DNA of 52,246 nucleotides from a virus. Position numbers and translations under genes: made by a program. Below are positions 10,652 to 52,246 of this stretch, in pieces. The DNA is taken from positions 1 through 52,246 of the IMG/VR virus record IMGVR_UViG_3300030104_000800. One strand, given 5' to 3'. The notes beneath the pieces are model-generated. The model was not told the DNA's origin, did no database searches, and saw only the letters and a program-made list of their open reading frames with translations. Within the stretch, counting starts at the first letter, position 1. The number at the start of each line of letters is the position of its first letter.

Positions 10652-13600
10652 ATGGCATTAATTGTACATGACAGAGTAAGAGAAACCTCTACCACTACAG
10701 GTACGGGTACATTAACTTTAGCAGGAGCTGTTCAAGGTTTTGAAACTTTTTCTAGTGCAATAGGAAACACTAACACAACTTATTACGCAATCGTTAATCA
10801 AGCAAACGCAGAATTCGAAGTTGGTCTTGGAACTGTATCAGCAGGTGCATTAGCAAGAACAACTATAATCACATCATCAAACTCAAACAACGCTGTAGAC
10901 TTTTCAGCAGGTACAAAAGATGTATTCTGTACTCTACCTGCAACAAAAGCAGTTATAGAAGATGCAAGTAGTAATGTATCACTTCCAGCAAATTTAACTG
11001 TTGGTGACATGACATTATCTGGAAGCACAATAAGCGATCCTAGTTCTTTTAAAATAGACACAGATAGTGCTATAATTTTAGACGCTGGTAGTGGTGGTAA
11101 TGGTGTTCAAATAGATGATGATGGCACTGAAATTCTTCGTATATCAAACTCATCCAGTGATGTTACTATACAAACTAAAGTATCGGATAAAGATTTATTT
11201 ATTAAAGGTAATGATGGCGGTTCTGATGTTACAGCTTTAAGTTTTGATATGTCTGCTGCTGGCGCAGCTACATTTGGTAATAATGTAAATGTTACTGCAG
11301 ACTTAGATGTTGATGGTACAGCTAATTTAGATGTTGTTGATATTGATGGAGCTGTTGATATGGCCTCTACTTTAACTCTAGCTGGAAATGCAGATTTTAA
11401 TGGTGATCTAGATGTTGATGGTACAGCTAATTTAGATGTTGTTGATATTGATGGAGCTGTTGATATGGCTTCTACTTTGACTGTAGCTGGAAATGCAGAT
11501 TTTAATGGTAATTTAGATGTAGATGGTACAACAGATACAGACGGAATAACTAACTCTGGTAATTTTTCTACAGATGGTGGCACGATAAAACTAGATGGTA
11601 ACTATCCAACAGGAACAGATAACGTAGCAATAGGAGATACTGCTTTAGATTCAGTTGAAGCTGGCGGTATAGCCAATGTCGCTATTGGTAGTAAAGCTGG
11701 AACAGCAATTACAACAGGAGATAATAATATTGTAATAGGTTTATGCGCTGGTTTAAAAACTAATACAGGTGGACAAAACGTTGGAATAGGTAGCTTTTCT
11801 TTTTGTAATAATACTACAGGATGTAAAAATGTAGCTATAGGACAAAGTTCAATGAAAGCTAGTACTACAGGAGACTTTAATGTTGGTATAGGTATGGGTT
11901 CTTTAGCCTTACATGAAACAGCAGATGGTAATACTGCTATAGGTGCTTGTTCTATGGCATCTACAACAACAGGAGCAAGTAATGTTGCAGTAGGTTTTTG
12001 TTCTTTATTTACTAACACAACAGGTGGAAGTAATACATCATTAGGTGTTCAATCTTTACTTGATAACACAACAGGTGGAAACAATGTTGCTCTTGGTAAG
12101 TGTGCTTTATGTGATAATACAACAGGTTCTCAAAATATAGGAATAGGTGTAGAGGCTTTATCTAAAATTACAACGGCAGAAAATAATGTAGCAGTAGGAC
12201 ACAGAGCTTTATGTGCTAATACAGGAACAGCTAATGTGGCAATGGGTTATCAAGCTTCCAGATATGCAACTTCAGGAAATTACAACATTGCAATTGGAGT
12301 AGATTCAAGGAGAGATGCAACAACAGGATCAAATAACGTTGCCGTTGGTTATCAAACATTAAGAGAATCAGAAACAGCAAGTAATAACACAGCTGTAGGT
12401 CACGAAGTTTTAAAAGTTAACACAACAGGTTCTGAAAATGTTGCTGTTGGAGATTTAGCTTTAGTTGCTAATACAGAAGGTCATAGTAATGTAGCAATTG
12501 GTCATAATTCTTTAGCCACTAACACAACAGCAGACGAACATACAGCAGTAGGTTTCTGTGCTTTAAATGCAAATACTTCTGGAATAAGAAATACAGCTGT
12601 TGGAAGACAAGCCATGAAAGCAAATACTACAGGATGTTGCAATGTTGGAATTGGATCAAATACTTTATTAACTGGAACTACAGGAGATTTTAACACAGCA
12701 GTAGGTGGAGCATCTATGATGGCTGTTGTAACAGGAAATAGTAATACAGCAGTTGGTGCTTGCACTCTTACTTGTAACACTTCAGGAACTTTAAATACTG
12801 CTGTTGGTATATGTTCTTCATGTGCCATGACAACAGGACAACAAAATGCCAGTATAGGTGGAAGTTCTTTAATTGCTAACACAACAGGTTCAAGAAATAC
12901 TGCTTTAGGTATGAGCAGTTTGTCAACAAATACAACAGGAGCTGACAATACAGCTGTTGGTCATGGTGCATTATCAGCAAATACAACAGCAAGTGAAAAT
13001 ACAGCTGTTGGTAGAGCTTCGTTGCAATCTAACACAACAGGAACACCTAACACAGCTGTAGGTTTTAAAGCTTTAAATGCAAACACAACAGGAGCAAGTA
13101 ATACAGCTGTAGGTCAGTGTTCTTTAAAATCTAATACAACAGGATTTGAAAACGTAGCAGTGGGATCACTTGCAGGAGATGCTGTTACAACAGGTGCAAA
13201 CAATGTAGCTGTAGGTGAGGCATCTTTAACTACTGCTACTACAGCTAGTTACAATACAGCGATTGGTAGAGCGTCATTAAGATTAACAACTACAGGAGCC
13301 TCAAATACAGCTGTTGGTATGGAAGCCTTAAGAGCAAATACAACAGCAAGTAATAATACAGCTGTAGGTGGTTGTGCTTTATATTCTAACACAACAGGAA
13401 CTCGTAATGCTGCAGTTGGTTTATGTGCTTTAAAAGCTAACACAACAGGAGATGATAATACTGCATTTGGTCAATGTGCTTTAAAAACTAACACAACTTC
13501 ACATGATAATACAGCTTTTGGTTCATATGCTTTAGCAGACAATACGTCTGGAACACAAAATACTGCTATGGGTATTGAAGCTATGAGATATGGTACAACA

Positions 13601-47360: not shown

Positions 47361-47652
47361 TATCGAAAGGGTGTCGGCAGGGTGTCGGCAGGGTGTCGGC
47401 AGGGTGTCGCAAATTATTAAAAAGTGCGACATATGTATACACAATGTGGCAGAAATGTGTCAATTGCCACAATTTAGCCATAAAAGTTCGACACTTGCGA
47501 TACCCTTGCGATACCCTTGCGAGGGGGGGGGTGTCGCAAAATAAGCTTTGTATACCAACCCTTATAGAGCAAAATAGCCATTTGCGATACCTTTTCAATT
47601 TGAAAAAAATAAGCGCAGTTAAAAAAATAAAATTGTTATTTAGGTGTCGAAA
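47361..47652. repeat. Iteron-like cluster, consensus GGGTRTCGSMA, both orientations
   Basis: Direct 11-mers GGGTGTCGGCA at 47369, 47380 and 47391, then GGGTGTCGCAA at 47402; inverted TTGCGATACCC at 47495 and 47506 with a truncated third at 47517; direct again at 47529; inverted at 47582; a further GGTGTCGAAA at 47643; weaker matches at 47424 and 47487. The 47506 and 47529 units can pair into an 11-bp stem over G9. This 340-base stretch has no credible gene. Candidates: origin iterons, terminase (pac) recognition or a repressor array. Confidence 0.7.
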
Positions 47653-47667
47653 GGATAAAAAGTAAAT

Positions 47668-47982
47668 ATGTCAAAGAAAAAATCTAGAGTCATAAATTCA
47701 TATGTTAAGAAAAAGATAGTAAACAAAAGTTTACCATTTCCATACAAACGAGTAAGAATCGATTGGATTGATATCATCACAGAAGGTGGCTGGGGTAGCG
47801 AACGTGAATTTCAAAATATGAAATTAGCAACACCAGTAAGTGAAGGTTGGTTGTTTTCTAAAGACAAAGATACAGTTAAAATATTTTCTGGATATGATGT
47901 AGATGATGATGGTTCTATTACTTTTTCGGAGCGGTCGGTGTTTCCAACATCTTGTGTGAAGAAGATAACTCGGATTCATTAA
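47668..47982 (+). CDS. Small conserved phage protein
   Basis: 104 residues: PFPYKRVRIDWIDIITEGGW, GSEREFQNMKLATPVSEGWL, FSKDKDTVKIFSGYDVDDDG, SITFSERSVFPTSCVKKITR. Beta-rich; familiar from marine phages and cyanophages where it is of unknown function. Its 3' end overlaps the converging small terminase gene by 65 bases. Confidence 0.62.
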   Translation: MSKKKSRVINSYVKKKIVNKSLPFPYKRVRIDWIDIITEGGWGSEREFQNMKLATPVSEGWLFSKDKDTVKIFSGYDVDDDGSITFSERSVFPTSCVKKITRIH

Positions 47983-48463
47983 TATCCTGTGACTCACCCT
48001 CAACAACATCAGCATTTAAAAGAGGAGCGTAATCCTCTAAAATCTGTTTCATTTTTGCTTCTAATTCTTGCTCTGATAGTTCTTCCAATTTTCCCGTTTT
48101 TATTATCTTTCTGTCTATGTATAGCCCTGCCGCTTTACCTCTGTTGGCCTCAGCGTTTACCGCAGAAGAAAAAGAACCTTTCTTCAAAGCAGCTTCTCTA
48201 AGTCTAGCCAATTCTGCAATGTGTCCTTCATAAGACACTTCATGTTTTCTTAATCTTTCTTCTTTTAATAATGAAATATGTTTTACAACTAAAGGACTAA
48301 TTCTTGGATTAGTTAGTTCGCTTCCTTCTACCATTGCTCTCTTAGGACTATAACCAGCAGCGACAGCTGCCTCTCTTTTAGTCATAGGTCCATCTGGTCC
48401 ACCGAATACTAAAAACTCAGCAAATCGTTGTTGCATTTCTGTTAATCTTTTTGGAACACCCAT
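47918..48463 (-). CDS. terS: Terminase small subunit
   Basis: 181 residues. LTEMQQRFAEFLVFGGPDGP, then the helix-turn-helix region MTKREAAVAAGYSPKRAMVE / GSELTNPRISPLVVKHISLL (about 28-70) is the classic small terminase DNA-binding domain; the middle is a helical oligomerisation part (EVSYEGHIAELARLREAALK) and the C-terminus is acidic. It recognises the packaging site and hands DNA to the large terminase, which is not in this window. Encoded on the minus strand, away from portal, next to the iteron cluster. Nearly leaderless from the promoter at 48470-48498. Confidence 0.82.
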   Translation of the reverse strand: MGVPKRLTEMQQRFAEFLVFGGPDGPMTKREAAVAAGYSPKRAMVEGSELTNPRISPLVVKHISLLKEERLRKHEVSYEGHIAELARLREAALKKGSFSSAVNAEANRGKAAGLYIDRKIIKTGKLEELSEQELEAKMKQILEDYAPLLNADVVEGESQDINESELSSSHKMLETPTAPKK

Positions 48464-48464
48464 C

Positions 48465-48493
48465 TTGACTTTTTAAGGTAACTATCCTATATT
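48465..48493 (+). promoter_or_regulatory. Plus-strand promoter, second interleaved divergent node
   Basis: TTGACT (48465-48470), 17-bp spacer, TATATT (48488-48493), with TATCC directly before the -10. Predicted start at about 48500, i.e. the ATG at 48501, so the transcript is leaderless. Confidence 0.65.
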
Positions 48494-48498
48494 GTCAA
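48470..48498 (-). promoter_or_regulatory. Minus-strand promoter of terS, interleaved
   Basis: Minus strand TTGACA (48498-48493), 17-bp spacer, TAAAAA (48475-48470). Predicted start about 48463, exactly the terS ATG, so again essentially leaderless. It overlaps the plus promoter almost completely. Confidence 0.58.
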
Positions 48499-48500
48499 GA

Positions 48501-48695
48501 ATGAAAGTACATAGAAGTTCAAAAGAATTACAAGAAACTATTGAGGGATATAAGTTATTAATAGACCAGTTAAAGAAAGAAATTTGGCAATTAAAACAAA
48601 CTGCATCTGAGAATGAAAAAAACAAAAATCTCTTGCAAGGTTATAAAAACGTGATAAATGATTTATTCGCTAAGTTAAGTCAAAAAGATTTATGA
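48501..48695 (+). CDS. Small coiled-coil protein
   Basis: 64 residues: MKVHRSSKELQETIEGYKLL, IDQLKKEIWQLKQTASENEK, LQGYKNVINDLFAKLSQKDL; a leucine-rich coiled coil along most of its length. The ATG lies at the predicted transcription start with no ribosome site. Coupled by ATGA to the next gene. Function unknown. Confidence 0.6.
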   Translation: MKVHRSSKELQETIEGYKLLIDQLKKEIWQLKQTASENEKNKNLLQGYKNVINDLFAKLSQKDL

Positions 48696-48931
48696 GAGTA
48701 CAAGACCTCCAACTTTTTCTAAGTAACTTTACAAAAGGCTCTGACGCAGTAAAAAATGCAGTTATTTTTGTAGAGATAAAAGGAAAATTACATGAGATTA
48801 AACGAATGGAAGTACATGAAAATTCTACTCCAATTATTGGTCAACCAGGTCATAGTGCACACAGATTGGTATTAAAAACCGAAAAACCTTCTAAGCTTAT
48901 CTTGCCAGATAAACTTCAGAAGGACTACTAA
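48692..48931 (+). CDS. Small conserved phage protein
   Basis: 79 residues: MRVQDLQLFLSNFTKGSDAV, KNAVIFVEIKGKLHEIKRME, VHENSTPIIGQPGHSAHRLV, LKTEKPSKL. This pattern (VFVEIKG ... EIKRMEVHENSTP ... AHRLVLKTEK) is well known to me from many marine phages; function unassigned. Coupled to the coiled-coil gene; likely early. Confidence 0.65.
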   Translation: MRVQDLQLFLSNFTKGSDAVKNAVIFVEIKGKLHEIKRMEVHENSTPIIGQPGHSAHRLVLKTEKPSKLILPDKLQKDY

Positions 48932-48959
48932 TGCATGATAAAATTACTCTAAAAAACAT

Positions 48960-49343
48960 ATGGGACCAGAGCGTAAATTGTACCAAAAAGTTAAGAAATC
49001 TTTTACCAATTTTTCCCTTAATAGACTTGAAAATACTAGCTTACATGGCACTCCCGATCTATTGGTCTGTAATAATTCTGGCCACTTTTTTACCTTAGAA
49101 CTCAAGATAACAAAGGGTAATAAATTAAGATTTAGTCCACACCAAATTGCCTTCCATGTGAGGCATCCACACAATACATTTATCTTAGCAGAGACCCTTG
49201 GTCCTTGCTCCTCTAAACTTTCTCAAATATCTTTGTACCCTGGTTCACGGATCTTGGAGCTTGATGCTTGCGGCTTGAAGCTTGAACCTTTATGCTTAGG
49301 GCTTGATGCTTGCAGCCTGATGCTTGATCAGCTTGGCGCTTGA
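48960..49343 (+). CDS. VRR-NUC nuclease with a repeat-derived C-terminal tail
   Basis: 127 residues. Core about 1-80: E4, G30-T-P-D33 (GTPDLLVCN), E47-x-K49 (FTLELKI), RFSPHQIAFHVRHP with Q62, and FILAE, the compact VRR-NUC fold related to Holliday-junction and nick-processing nucleases. From about residue 98 the frame runs into the GCTTGNN DNA array and the protein ends LDACGLKLEPLCLGLDACSL..., clearly repeat-derived. It may be functional without this tail. Confidence 0.76.
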   Translation: MGPERKLYQKVKKSFTNFSLNRLENTSLHGTPDLLVCNNSGHFFTLELKITKGNKLRFSPHQIAFHVRHPHNTFILAETLGPCSSKLSQISLYPGSRILELDACGLKLEPLCLGLDACSLMLDQLGA

Positions 49344-49379
49344 AGCTTGCTGCTTGCAGCCTGAAGCTTGATGCTTGTG
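49259..49379 (+). repeat. GCTTGNN heptanucleotide array, copy 1
   Basis: About 14 recognisable units of GCTTGNN (GCTTGAT, GCTTGCG, GCTTGAA ...) with one short interruption and a few GCCTG variants, all in the same orientation, inside and beyond the 3' end of the nuclease gene. Unit length 7 means all reading frames give a 7-residue periodic peptide. Confidence 0.8.
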
Positions 49380-49496
49380 GCCCGGACCAGGGCGCACGCT
49401 ATCAACGACTTCGCGAGTGTCGGGTTTGCTAATGGCCTGATCCGTTTTATCCCTAGGGATTCTGTAAAATTTTGGGTGTTTAAAAACATGTGTCAT
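49296..49496 (-). CDS. Possible small protein ending in heptad-repeat tail
   Basis: 66 codons starting two bases after the GP88 stop (TAA-TC-ATG): MTHVFKHPKFYRIPRDKTDQ, AISKPDTREVVDSVRPGPGH, then KHQASGCKQQASSAKLIKHQ from the repeat array. Tight coupling to GP88 favours translation; the repeat tail argues for caution. The 'PGP...K(R/Q)QASS' layout parallels the ORF at 50269-50460. Confidence 0.38.
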   Translation of the reverse strand: MTHVFKHPKFYRIPRDKTDQAISKPDTREVVDSVRPGPGHKHQASGCKQQASSAKLIKHQAASIKP

Positions 49497-49498
49497 GA

Positions 49499-50098
49499 TT
49501 AGTGTTTACCATATTCTATATTTTTTACCAGCGGATCCCAACAAGCTCGACAGCTGCCGCACTCGTTGTTGTTGTCAGGGGCTGGACAGCTTCGACTCTT
49601 CGTCGAGACTGTTGACGTATTGGCCCAGCTCTTGACTGGTCCCTGATCTATCATCGGTGATGAGAAACGCACAACTAAGTTCGCTGGTGCGTTAACCATA
49701 TGGTCCTTGATCCACGCTTCACGGGTCGGCATCCAGTGCCGTTTCGCTGGTGTGAGCTTGCACACTTCGAATATCTTCTCCAGGTGTTGCACGTCCTGCA
49801 CGTCGCCTGAGTCATGCCATCTAAACACATCAGGCTTTTTAGAATTAATTAGTGTTGCCATTGCCAGCACCCAGTCAGGGTGACTGATGGCCTCGAGTCT
49901 TTTGTACTGAGCTTCTTGTACAACCTTAAAAACATAACAACCTTTCAGGGCGTAACAGCCTTCACAAACTGAATTTTTTATTTGTCTTAATTTTTTGCCA
50001 GTCTTGCATTCCTTCGCAGGTATACCAATTGACCAGCCAGGCATCTTTGACGGTTTACTTAACCCTCCAACCAGGGTCCATGCTTCTTTTGTATTCAT
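49499..50098 (-). CDS. GP88-family protein (gene product 88), Cys-rich
   Basis: 199 residues. KMPGWSIGIPAKECKTGKKL, RQIKNSVCEGCYALKGCYVF (C-x2-C-x5-C cluster), YKRLEAISHPDWVLAMATLI, FRWHDSGDVQDVQHLEKIFE, AKRHWMPTREAWIKDH, and a second cluster CPAPDNNNECGSCRACW. I recognise the GP88 family of phages and mobile elements; its two Cys clusters could bind zinc or Fe-S and the HDSGD motif is invariant. Function unknown. Main gene of a minus-strand early operon with a 61-aa partner. Confidence 0.76.
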   Translation of the reverse strand: MNTKEAWTLVGGLSKPSKMPGWSIGIPAKECKTGKKLRQIKNSVCEGCYALKGCYVFKVVQEAQYKRLEAISHPDWVLAMATLINSKKPDVFRWHDSGDVQDVQHLEKIFEVCKLTPAKRHWMPTREAWIKDHMVNAPANLVVRFSSPMIDQGPVKSWANTSTVSTKSRSCPAPDNNNECGSCRACWDPLVKNIEYGKH

Positions 50099-50099
50099 A

Positions 50100-50285
50100 T
50101 TATCCTTTCAAACTTATTTTTGTTAATTCCATTTGTGAGCCTTCTTTGATATCCTTTTCAAAGTTTAAAATTGTATCAACCTTGCTCCGAATTTCTGTGT
50201 CGCTGTGACCGTTGCTGTCCATCCATTGGATCACCTCAACCAGCGCCCAGTGTTGCTTTCTTAATAATTCAATTGTATTTTCCAT
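50100..50285 (-). CDS. Small conserved helical protein upstream of GP88
   Basis: 61 residues: MENTIELLRKQHWALVEVIQ, WMDSNGHSDTEIRSKVDTIL, NFEKDIKEGSQMELTKISL. AAGGAG site (minus) and a promoter candidate at 50312-50340. Ends one base before the GP88 start, so cotranscribed. Function unknown. Confidence 0.58.
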   Translation of the reverse strand: MENTIELLRKQHWALVEVIQWMDSNGHSDTEIRSKVDTILNFEKDIKEGSQMELTKISLKG

Positions 50286-50460
50286 TTTCTTTCTCCTTTA
50301 GTTTATAGGATACAATAACATTGTAATTTAATCTTGTCAAGCTTGCAGCTTGACGCTTGCAGCTTGAGGCTTGTCGCTTGTAGCTTGGTCCTTGATCCTC
50401 CAGCCAGCGCGCATGCTGCAGGAAGACTCGGGCCATTGCTGGCCCGGGACGTCTACTCAC
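50269..50460 (-). CDS. Possible repeat-tailed protein (RPGPAMARVFLQHARWLEDQGP type)
   Basis: 63 codons coupled to the gene at 50457-50645 by ATGA. MSRRPGPAMARVFLQHARWL then EDQGPSYKRQASSCKRQAAS is a recurrent reading in marine-phage contigs, and the DNA holds a CGGGCC...GGCCCG hairpin plus the GCTTGNN array. The C-terminal part runs through the promoter of the next operon. It could be a real conserved peptide or the shadow of a conserved DNA/RNA element. Confidence 0.36.
   Translation of the reverse strand: MSRRPGPAMARVFLQHARWLEDQGPSYKRQASSCKRQAASLTRLNYNVIVSYKLKEKENGKYN
50312..50340 (-). promoter_or_regulatory. Minus-strand promoter of the GP88 operon
   Basis: Minus strand TTGACA (50340-50335), 17-bp spacer, TATTGT (50317-50312). 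Predicted start near 50305, about 20 bases before the 50285 ATG and its AAGGAG. An alternative -10 TATAAA further on, preceded by TATCC, is possible. Confidence 0.58.
50341..50396 (+). repeat. GCTTGNN array, copy 2, abutting a minus promoter -35
   Basis: Eight perfectly phased units (GCTTGCA, GCTTGAC, GCTTGCA, GCTTGAG, GCTTGTC, GCTTGTA, GCTTGGT, CCTTGAT). The array begins exactly where the minus-strand TTGACA (50340-50335) ends, so seen from that promoter it lies just upstream like an activator array. Confidence 0.82.
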
Positions 50461-50645
50461 TTCTTACTCCTAGCTTCAAGGTTAAAGTCATACCAGCCGC
50501 TGCTGTCTAGGAACTCTACGGCCCTGTCCAGTGCATTCCTAAAATGCTTCGTCCGGTATTCAGCTGGACAGTCTTCATCAGCGTGACATGCTAGCCACGC
50601 CAGCATGTCACAAATTTCATTTTCGCGTTTGGAGAACTTAGTCAT
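50457..50645 (-). CDS. Small conserved protein
   Basis: 62 residues: MTKFSKRENEICDMLAWLAC, HADEDCPAEYRTKHFRNALD, RAVEFLDSSGWYDFNLEARS. Acidic N-terminus with three Cys, helical. Start overlaps the upstream gene by 8 bases. A recurring minus-strand gene beside the GCTTGNN arrays in this kind of phage; function unknown. Confidence 0.6.
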   Translation of the reverse strand: MTKFSKRENEICDMLAWLACHADEDCPAEYRTKHFRNALDRAVEFLDSSGWYDFNLEARSKK

Positions 50646-50787
50646 CCTTCCTGTCCTCCATATATTTTCTAGATCTCTCCTGATCTTCCTTCACCATCCT
50701 GATGACCTCTTCCAAGGCGTCCGCTATTCTTCTGAGCTGTACAACTTCACCTCTTATGTTTGGTTCTTTTTCACTATTTATACTCAT
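50638..50787 (-). CDS. Small helical protein
   Basis: 49 codons from the minus ATG at 50787: MSINSEKEPNIRGEVVQLRR, IADALEEVIRMVKEDQERSR and KYMEDRKDD. A short amphipathic coiled coil; AAGGAA site (minus) and a promoter candidate at 50811-50839. First gene of the leftward operon. Function unknown. Confidence 0.57.
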   Translation of the reverse strand: MSINSEKEPNIRGEVVQLRRIADALEEVIRMVKEDQERSRKYMEDRKDD

Positions 50788-50810
50788 ATGTTTTATTCCT
50801 TTCTAAATAC

Positions 50811-50839
50811 ATCCTACATTATCCCTGAACCATTGTCAA
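50811..50839 (-). promoter_or_regulatory. Minus-strand promoter, GCTTGNN array just upstream
   Basis: Minus strand TTGACA (50839-50834), 17-bp spacer, TAGGAT (50816-50811). The start at about 50804 lies 17 bases before the 50787 ATG. As at 50340, the -35 box sits two bases from a GCTTGNN array. Confidence 0.5.
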
Positions 50840-50841
50840 GC

Positions 50842-50866
50842 GCTTGCTGCTTGAGGCTTGAAGCTC
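50842..50866 (+). repeat. GCTTGNN array, copy 3 (three units)
   Basis: GCTTGCT, GCTTGAG, GCTTGAA, then GCTC. Same orientation as the other arrays, two bases upstream (minus sense) of the TTGACA at 50839-50834. Confidence 0.7.
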
Positions 50867-50879
50867 AACTCTCTCCTTC

Positions 50880-51293
50880 TTTAGAATGATTTTTAGAATC
50901 ATTCTAAAGTGGCTCTCGGTAGGTCTCACCCGAGATTATTCCTAACGCGTGTCGCGCATAGCATCCAAGACCAATGGGCCACAAATTATTAGCAGGACCC
51001 TGAGTTGAGGCCGGCGTGCTTTATTTTAACAGCCCGGGCAACAGGCCTAACAGGTTATCACCTGTCAGGGTCCAGCAAATAATGATCAGTCACTATGCTA
51101 CGCGGGGGGTTGACGGCCACAGTTTCAGTCAACATTCGGGAGCTCCTTTACCGCCCACCGTGTTATAGTGTTTATCTCCACAGTCAATAATGACTGATCT
51201 CGGATCTAACACAGTTGAAAATATTAGATCCGAGATCAGTAGCGTTGCTGTTATCCTACAGACCAACGCTAATAATCTCTACTTGTTTAGAGT
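50880..51293 (-). ncRNA. Candidate large structured phage RNA
   Basis: A 500-base stretch without a gene. It holds, on the minus sense, many perfect or near-perfect stems: CTCTA/TAGAG near 51275-51292, AGCGTTG/CAACGCT (51241-51247/51264-51270) with an inner CTGT/ACAG, a 17-bp stem (51193-51209/51224-51240), a long-range 9-bp pair (51084-51092/51191-51199) enclosing smaller nested stems, a 19-bp stem with two mismatches (50985-51003/51065-51083), CTCGG/CCGAG (50914-50934) and a 12-bp terminal hairpin (50880-50891/50897-50908). It follows a near-consensus minus promoter, is GC-richer than the genome and has no ORF. Size suggests a 400-nt ornate RNA; family unknown. Confidence 0.62.
51193..51240. 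promoter_or_regulatory. 17-bp perfect inverted repeat in the RNA region
   Basis: ACTGATCTCGGATCTAA (51193-51209) and TTAGATCCGAGATCAGT (51224-51240) with a 14-nt loop. No T run follows on either side. Its left arm overlaps a 9-base segment that can instead pair with 51084-51092, so two exclusive folds are possible. Confidence 0.8.
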
Positions 51294-51299
51294 AATTAA

Positions 51300-51328
51300 T
51301 ATATAATCCTTGACAATCCTATTGTCAA
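51300..51328 (-). promoter_or_regulatory. Near-consensus minus promoter of the structured RNA
   Basis: Minus strand TTGACA (51328-51323), 17-bp spacer, TATATA (51305-51300). Predicted start about 51293. It overlaps a plus-strand TTGACA (51310-51315) through the perfect repeat TTGACAAT-CCT-ATTGTCAA (51310-51328). Confidence 0.7.
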
Positions 51329-51338
51329 GTAGTAAAAC
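51310..51338 (+). promoter_or_regulatory. Plus promoter (weak -10), third interleaved node
   Basis: TTGACA (51310-51315), 17-bp spacer, TAAAAC (51333-51338). It would start transcription about 30 bases before the ATG at 51374. The inverted repeat of two -35 boxes suggests one regulator or RNA polymerase competition at this site. Confidence 0.45.
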
Positions 51339-51373
51339 AAAAAAATAAAAATTAATTAACAGAAAGGTCTAAA

Positions 51374-52246
51374 ATGACAAAAATAAGAATGAATACAGAG
51401 TTGCGAAACAAACTCTTTAATAAAATAAAAAATGTCTTTGAGAATGAAGACACTCAAGAACGAGAGGCATATCTTCAAGCAAGGGAAAATGTTGATAGAG
51501 AATATGAACACGCTCATAGACTTGCAGTAGATGTAGTTGAGAGATCATATCCACCAGAAGATGTTGCAACTCTTAGAACTTTTAAAAAGAAGTATGGCAA
51601 CCCTTGTGATGTTGTAGCAAAAGATAAATGTTTTTACTTTGCACACAACGAAGACAAAGATGAAGATGGCGACGTTACAGAAACAAAATCTCATTTTGAT
51701 TTTGGTTTGTTTGGTAATCTAAATGGTAATGAGTATGGTAGTGATGAGGGCAAAAAGTTTGCGTTTGCATATTATAGAGAAGATTTAAAAGCTATGGATT
51801 GCAACCCAGATATCTACGCACAACAAAAAGAAAACAAAGACAACCCACATAAAACAAAACACGTTGATGAGTGTACTAAAGCATTGGGTCATACTAGTAG
51901 TTATAATGGTAATGACAATACAGGCATGACTAAAACTTTTGATGACCAATATTATCTTGATGTTATCGGAACATCTTATTGCAGATCAAGAGCAATAGCT
52001 TGTACCAAAGATGAGTATTCAATGTTTGAAAGGTGGAGAATTGCAAAAGGTAATTTAGTTACTACACACCAAACATGGATTGATAGTATTGTAAAACAAT
52101 GCGATCAGTTAAAAATTGGATTAAAAGCATACAGATATCTTTCAGAGGGTATTGAACTTGCAACAGAACTTGGAATACAAGTTGATGAGGCAGAGTTAAT
52201 TAGAACTAACTCAACAGGTTTGACTATCTACAATCCAAGCAACTTG
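51374..52246 (+). CDS. Conserved marine-phage protein, partial (3' end outside window)
   Basis: 291 codons open to the window edge; AGAAAGGT site before the ATG. MTKIRMNTELRNKLFNKIKN, VVERSYPPEDVATLRTFKKK, GNPCDVVAKDKCFYFAHNED, HFDFGLFGNLNGNEYGSDEG, AYYREDLKAMDCNPDIYAQQ, KTKHVDECTKALGHTSSYNG, YYLDVIGTSYCRSRAIACTK, FERWRIAKGNLVTTHQTWID and AYRYLSEGIELATELGIQVD then RTNSTGLTIYNPSNL. I recognise it as a well-conserved protein of uncultured marine phages with no known domain; acidic, Cys-containing, possibly early host-takeover. Confidence 0.68.
   Translation, partial: MTKIRMNTELRNKLFNKIKNVFENEDTQEREAYLQARENVDREYEHAHRLAVDVVERSYPPEDVATLRTFKKKYGNPCDVVAKDKCFYFAHNEDKDEDGDVTETKSHFDFGLFGNLNGNEYGSDEGKKFAFAYYREDLKAMDCNPDIYAQQKENKDNPHKTKHVDECTKALGHTSSYNGNDNTGMTKTFDDQYYLDVIGTSYCRSRAIACTKDEYSMFERWRIAKGNLVTTHQTWIDSIVKQCDQLKIGLKAYRYLSEGIELATELGIQVDEAELIRTNSTGLTIYNPSNL

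Follow-up and report, generated by a model that had tools for sequence, protein, structure and literature searches.

Two described systems come closest to the arrays reported here. At the parS sites of pSM19035, the RHH protein omega2 (ParB) binds cooperatively, with one dimer per 7-bp repeat (PMC9499535); the repeats are consecutive and non-palindromic, occur in several arrays per replicon, and overlap promoters. The ctxAB promoter of CTX-phi carries phage-borne heptads whose unit number varies between strains (PMC10467113); its TTTTGAT units are identical to each other, and the regulators associated with them, ToxR, ToxT, and H-NS, are those of the host. The pentamer CAAGC recurring every 7 bp is also common in bacterial genomes, where we found it in Pseudomonas, Halomonas, Alcanivorax, and others (L219-L336) as homogeneous heptanucleotide repeats. 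In this study, we analyzed arrays of the heptad CAAGCNN in a phage genome. In geometry, these arrays are like omega2 parS and the ctx heptads; in sequence and known binder, they match neither.

The window, by which we mean the whole stretch of 52,246 bases that was analyzed, is part of a 61,917-base IMG/VR virus record. At the array region, the named phage most similar to it is Pelagibacter phage HTVC027P (73.5% identity, 37% of the query), an HTVC023P-type pelagiphage whose host is SAR11 strain HTCC1062, and we assign the record to the HTVC027P-like pelagiphages of the HTVC023P type. Phages of this type are counted among the most abundant in the ocean (PMC9599517). Most genes in the window are oriented on the plus strand, and the arrays lie within a short minus-strand segment together with the gene for GP88.

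The three arrays are present as a preliminary description of this DNA had claimed, with a common heptad in one orientation that reads CAAGCNN on the minus strand and GCTTGNN on the plus strand. Array 1 (50842-50862, minus strand) consists of three exact units and lies two bases upstream of the TTGACA (50839-50834) of promoter P1 (50811-50839, minus strand), which has a 17-bp spacer and the -10 box TAGGAT and is directed into a gp34-like gene. Array 2 (50341-50396, minus strand) comprises eight units directly upstream of promoter P2 (50312-50340, minus strand) and starts at the very base that adjoins its TTGACA (50340-50335); the -10 box TATTGT (50317-50312) follows after 17 bp, and the promoter points into 50285-50100 and then into the GP88 gene. 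The account of this array holds with the correction that seven units are exact GCTTGNN and one is imperfect (CCTTGAT). Both array promoters fit the sigma-70 form, defined as TTGACA, a spacer of 17±1 bp, and a TATAAT-like -10 box. Array 3 (about 49250-49377, minus strand) lies downstream of GP88 in blocks of 5, 5, and 7 units; no TTGACA or promoter was found at this array, which is overprinted on a nuclease gene, an overlap that the preliminary description does not mention, so the reading as a promoter element does not extend to it. A pattern of three units with up to two mismatches has 21 matches, compared with a mean of 0.10 and a largest count of 2 in 100 dinucleotide shuffles, which confirms the arrays and puts them well outside the range of chance. 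When all 61,917 bases of the record were searched with the exact pattern, arrays turned up solely within a 1.6-kb stretch, and none lay on the opposite strand. Perfect tandem arrays with an 11-bp period were seen elsewhere in the window, at 47368-47409 (AGGGTGTCGGC x3.8) and 47494-47522 (CTTGCGATACC x2.6).

Like pSM19035, the locus has contiguous 7-bp repeats in several arrays that overlap promoters, apart from the promoter-less third array. The plasmid consensus is WATCACW, with repeats facing either way, whereas the phage unit is CAAGCNN and runs on one strand only; pSM19035 encodes RHH omega together with ParA, whereas no RHH_1 gene was found in the record, which belongs to a lytic phage group. 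An array upstream of a -35 box is a geometry shared with the ToxR-type promoter of ctxAB, but the heptad is not TTTTGAT, and the phage units contain two variable spacer bases. Membership of the phage arrays thus fails on sequence for both systems and on the RHH gene for omega2/parS. Literature searches with the array strings returned only primers and unrelated papers, and those combining heptanucleotide repeats with phage and promoter returned unrelated papers.

Relatives were gathered by an array-pattern scan and by an array-independent search with the GP88 protein, which together gave 175 loci with GP88. Arrays occur in 163 of these, with 578 running along GP88 and 0 in the opposite direction. 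The pattern scan selects for arrays; a fair estimate comes from the GP88 search, in which 4 of 78 newly fetched loci (L200, L202, L207, and L209) are without arrays; this search returned the 80 loci closest to the GP88 of the window, so that divergent loci are under-sampled. Arrays in relatives occupy two sites, one upstream of GP88 (216 unique arrays) and one just behind it (325 unique arrays, with TTGACA in almost none). Among the upstream arrays, 187 of 227 have an exact TTGACA at -3 to +15 bp from their end, while random positions within 300 bp gave a mean of 7.8 and a maximum of 18. When each of the 34 GP88 clusters at 80% is represented by one locus, such a box adjoins 30 of 49 arrays (1.5 expected, maximum 7). 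The commonest register, found in 115 of the 216 unique upstream arrays, has CAAGC followed by TTGACA with zero gap, and the spacer is 17 bp in 154 of 166 non-redundant array promoters. In a logo of the array promoters of 126 relatives, the pentamer is near-invariant in the nearest units and fades outward, the two spacer bases are variable so that the information lies on the pentamer, and the -10 box (T 0.92, A 0.94) appears 17 bp after the TTGACA box. An automatic pick of TATAAT at offset 15 was discarded because it cannot pair with the -35 box, and the aligned logo was used. In 10 of the 34 lineages so represented, an upstream array has no exact TTGACA in reach, and some lineages retain the array with a degenerate -35 box. 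The earlier proposal that the arrays are multimeric regulator sites is partly supported: random placement in relatives, which would have refuted it, is not what we observed, and the -10 box at 17 bp speaks in its favor, while the RHH search without a candidate and the promoter-less third array do not fit.

The array promoters drive homologues of two HTVC027P genes, gp34 and gp33, each of which is preceded by an array in HTVC027P as well. The gp34-like gene (50638-50787, minus strand) encodes 49 amino acids that look like a short coiled coil. A Pfam search with the window homologue found no family, and for this reason, together with the coiled-coil-like sequence, we consider the published Pdase_C33_assoc annotation of gp34 doubtful. 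In our data set, gp34 of HTVC027P lies at 13242-13382 of locus L131. The homologue of gp33 is the GP88 gene (PF17338; 49499-50098, minus strand; Pfam E 2.6e-24). We considered GP88 itself as a DNA-binding protein and set the idea aside: its AlphaFold model (pLDDT 94.8) gave no significant PDB match and no recognizable DNA-binding fold, and a profile search was empty. According to an independent RNA-seq study of HTVC027P, gp33 and gp34 form a cluster of their own, highly expressed at 6 to 9 hpi and outside the early, middle, and late classes, and all early genes are of unknown function (PMC12753301). The promoters with arrays are thus those of precisely this separate cluster, and the expression of both genes is in line with the use of the promoters assumed in the preliminary description. 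We regard the timing of this cluster as the best functional hint on the arrays.

We favor, with a probability of roughly 0.62, a model in which arrays 1 and 2 serve on the DNA as operators with multiple sites for a regulator of P1 and P2 that loads side by side. One protein, probably encoded by the phage, would recognize CAAGC and load cooperatively every 7 bp up to the -35 box; there it would control host RNA polymerase at P1, which serves the gp34-like gene, and at P2, which serves the GP88 gene, so that both genes would come on in the early-to-middle phase and go down later. The arrays, the promoter geometry, their conservation and strand polarity, and the linkage to two genes of distinct timing are observations; protein binding, a phage origin of the binder, and the sign of regulation are inferred. 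We lean slightly toward activation because, in HTVC027P, gp33 and gp34 come on later than the early class and because some lineages keep the array with a degenerate -35 box. Repression is nearly as likely since most of the promoters keep a consensus -35 box and a 17-bp spacer, features that favor repression or class I action. To our knowledge, nothing is known about the control of gene timing in HTVC023P-type pelagiphages. With the heptad arrays there is now a concrete cis-element to work on, together with two target genes, gp36 as a candidate partner, and a phage that is in culture with its host.

The case for gp36 comes from the divergent gp35-gp36-gp37 operon next to the arrays, which starts with a gp35-like gene (51374-52246, plus strand) and continues past the window end with gp36 and gp37 (record positions 52378-52910). 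When six complete records with arrays were compared with three without, the homologues of gp36 and gp37 gave the clearest difference (6/6 and 0/3, with HTVC023P covered over 50 of its 61 kb). Of the 78 array loci with sufficient flanking sequence, 76 have gp36 in profile searches, as against none of 9 array-less loci (Fisher 1e-10, not corrected for descent), and gp35 and gp37 were also found in HTVC033P, which is without arrays. The gp36 family is WYL_2 (PF10902; 20 of 39 members match, best 4.5e-7), which Pfam describes as an Sm-like SH3 barrel. On these grounds, we place gp36 first among the candidates for the array binder or the binder's partner. The correlation is confounded by synteny and descent, as the operon and the arrays may simply be passed on as one block. 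HTVC023P, HTVC027P, and HTVC033P all infect strain HTCC1062, and arrays were found only in HTVC027P: no CAAGC array is present in the whole record of HTVC033P, and none was seen in the stretch of HTVC023P that was read (50 of 61 kb). This makes a phage-encoded factor likelier than a host factor. The RHH-like phage protein suggested in the preliminary description found no counterpart. A search of the 61.9-kb record for RHH_1 (PF01402) gave no candidate, with matches in all 14 control genomes, and among the window proteins scanned with Pfam there was no obvious HTH or RHH except TerS of the Terminase_2 family. If the binder has neither fold, the arrays would be read by a new way of recognizing phased repeats.

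Array 3 overlaps the 3' end of a gene for an Hjc/VRR-NUC-like PD-(D/E)XK nuclease (48960-49343, plus strand), whose last ~35 codons are made of GCTTGNN units. The product has a PD-(D/E)XK core with invariant PD, ExK, and Q residues and an Hjc-like fold; its structure model matches 1gef and 2wiw in Foldseek (E 4e-4 to 8e-4), and single sequences give only weak Pfam matches, to Hjc and VRR_NUC. In the model, the array-coded tail forms C-terminal helices that are predicted with confidence and fold with the nuclease. TGN codons in the tail encode Cys in about 99% of cases and not Trp or stop, and GNN codons mostly encode Asp or Glu; by this codon usage, the tail is under protein-level selection. 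In array-less relatives, the nuclease tail is not array-coded. The DNA word has hence been written over a functioning gene, and this points to a role of the DNA of array 3, or of an antisense RNA, within the nuclease gene as well. Under the operator model, the same protein would also bind array 3, which could act as a roadblock, a remote site, or a reservoir.

Upstream of array 1 lies another minus-strand promoter, P0 (51300-51328; TTGACA 51328-51323, 17 bp, TATATA), whose core TTGACAAT is invariant in nine relatives. P0 would transcribe a structured region of about 430 bases (50870-51305, minus strand; folding z -6.4) toward array 1. In all 16 sampled relatives, the folding z is between -2.8 and -11 (12 shuffles each), and an alignment of nine relatives has compensatory changes at 23 of the 86 predicted pairs. 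The region is built of modular hairpins ending CTGATC...GATCAG, and an Rfam scan of 47900-51400 gave no match at E<=1. It is a candidate for a large non-coding RNA read toward the arrays, or for DNA hairpins. The -35 box of P0 lies inside a near-palindrome, CTTGACAATCCTATTGTCAAG (window 51300-51332), within which a plus-strand TTGACA faces gp35, and the divergent P0 and gp35-facing promoters may be mutually exclusive. We rejected the strict palindrome as a conserved feature, as the exact pattern is present in one of nine records and the arm is imperfect in relatives.

Could the arrays be neutral tandem repeats that grew by slippage and came to lie in intergenic DNA by accident? The variation in unit number between relatives, from 3 to 14, and the similar CAAGCNN arrays of many bacteria would suit such an origin, but the composition of the arrays already contradicts it. 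Neighboring spacers are identical in 546 of 632 cases (86%) in the cellular arrays, as slippage predicts for VNTRs with near-identical adjacent units; in the phage arrays, they are identical in 48 of 1409 cases (3%), below the 99 expected from within-array shuffles (minimum 80 in 500 shuffles). Because adjacent spacers avoid identity, slippage is no explanation, and with the strand bias of 578 to 0 and the non-random placement at -35 boxes, we consider this reading hardly tenable. Spacers three units apart are alike above chance in a test that is inflated by the relatedness of the loci, which lends modest support to the idea, put forward earlier, that three units matter as two helical turns (21 bp). 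Only marginally more credible is the view that the repeat arose in the coding sequence of the nuclease tail (as L-[DE]-A-C-x-L-x) and that the promoter arrays are functionless copies. The protein-level constraint on array 3 and the predicted folding of the tail with the nuclease are in line with this, but the tail is not array-coded in array-less relatives, and what is conserved in the promoter arrays is DNA, not coding sequence; we therefore hold it very improbable.

A role as packaging or replication sites, for example with DNA wrapped round a TerS ring and promoters that merely overlap, is improbable to a lesser degree. The TerS gene (47918-48463) is close to the arrays, and the 56 bp of an eight-unit array would be a fitting length for a ring of DNA-binding domains; yet the array-less relatives G005 and HTVC023P have TerS homologues, and packaging does not need arrays in register with -35 boxes. 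The most credible of the alternatives, which we still judge unlikely, is that the arrays act in RNA. Here, a protein of ring shape or Sm-like type, for instance gp36, would bind the CAAGC repeats in a transcript from P0 and P1 and control the stability or read-through of the GP88 message. Every array, even the third with no promoter, shares the strand of P0 and P1, the strongly structured, covarying region lies just upstream, and the Pfam description of WYL_2 would fit such a protein. However, arrays 1 and 2 are outside the transcripts of the promoters that they abut, and the exact ending of arrays at the -35 box is left unexplained.

A broader version of the preferred regulator model, which we offer as a tentative and on balance doubtful proposal, is that arrays, structured P0 region, WYL_2 operon, and GP88 belong together as a single new phage cassette, where a ring- or filament-forming protein that is neither HTH nor RHH would read the pentamer every 7 bp on DNA or RNA and gate the polymerase. 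Related phages would then have the same cassette with different same-strand repeats. Three of the array-less loci (L200, L207, and L209) have, around GP88 and at the place of the arrays, a cluster of five to eight GGGTGGGNCCCGCCCAC copies on one strand, with ATGCTCTTCTCT or AAGC after the copies; a search of four array phages for GGGTGGGNCCCGCCCAC found none. Between array and array-less phages, the elements upstream and downstream of GP88 change together, as could be expected if one trans-acting factor reads all of the sites; shared descent is an alternative. In L212 (023Pt_psg01), AAGC/GAGC tetramer repeats and GGGTGGGCCC elements flank GP88 on both sides, replacing the heptads.
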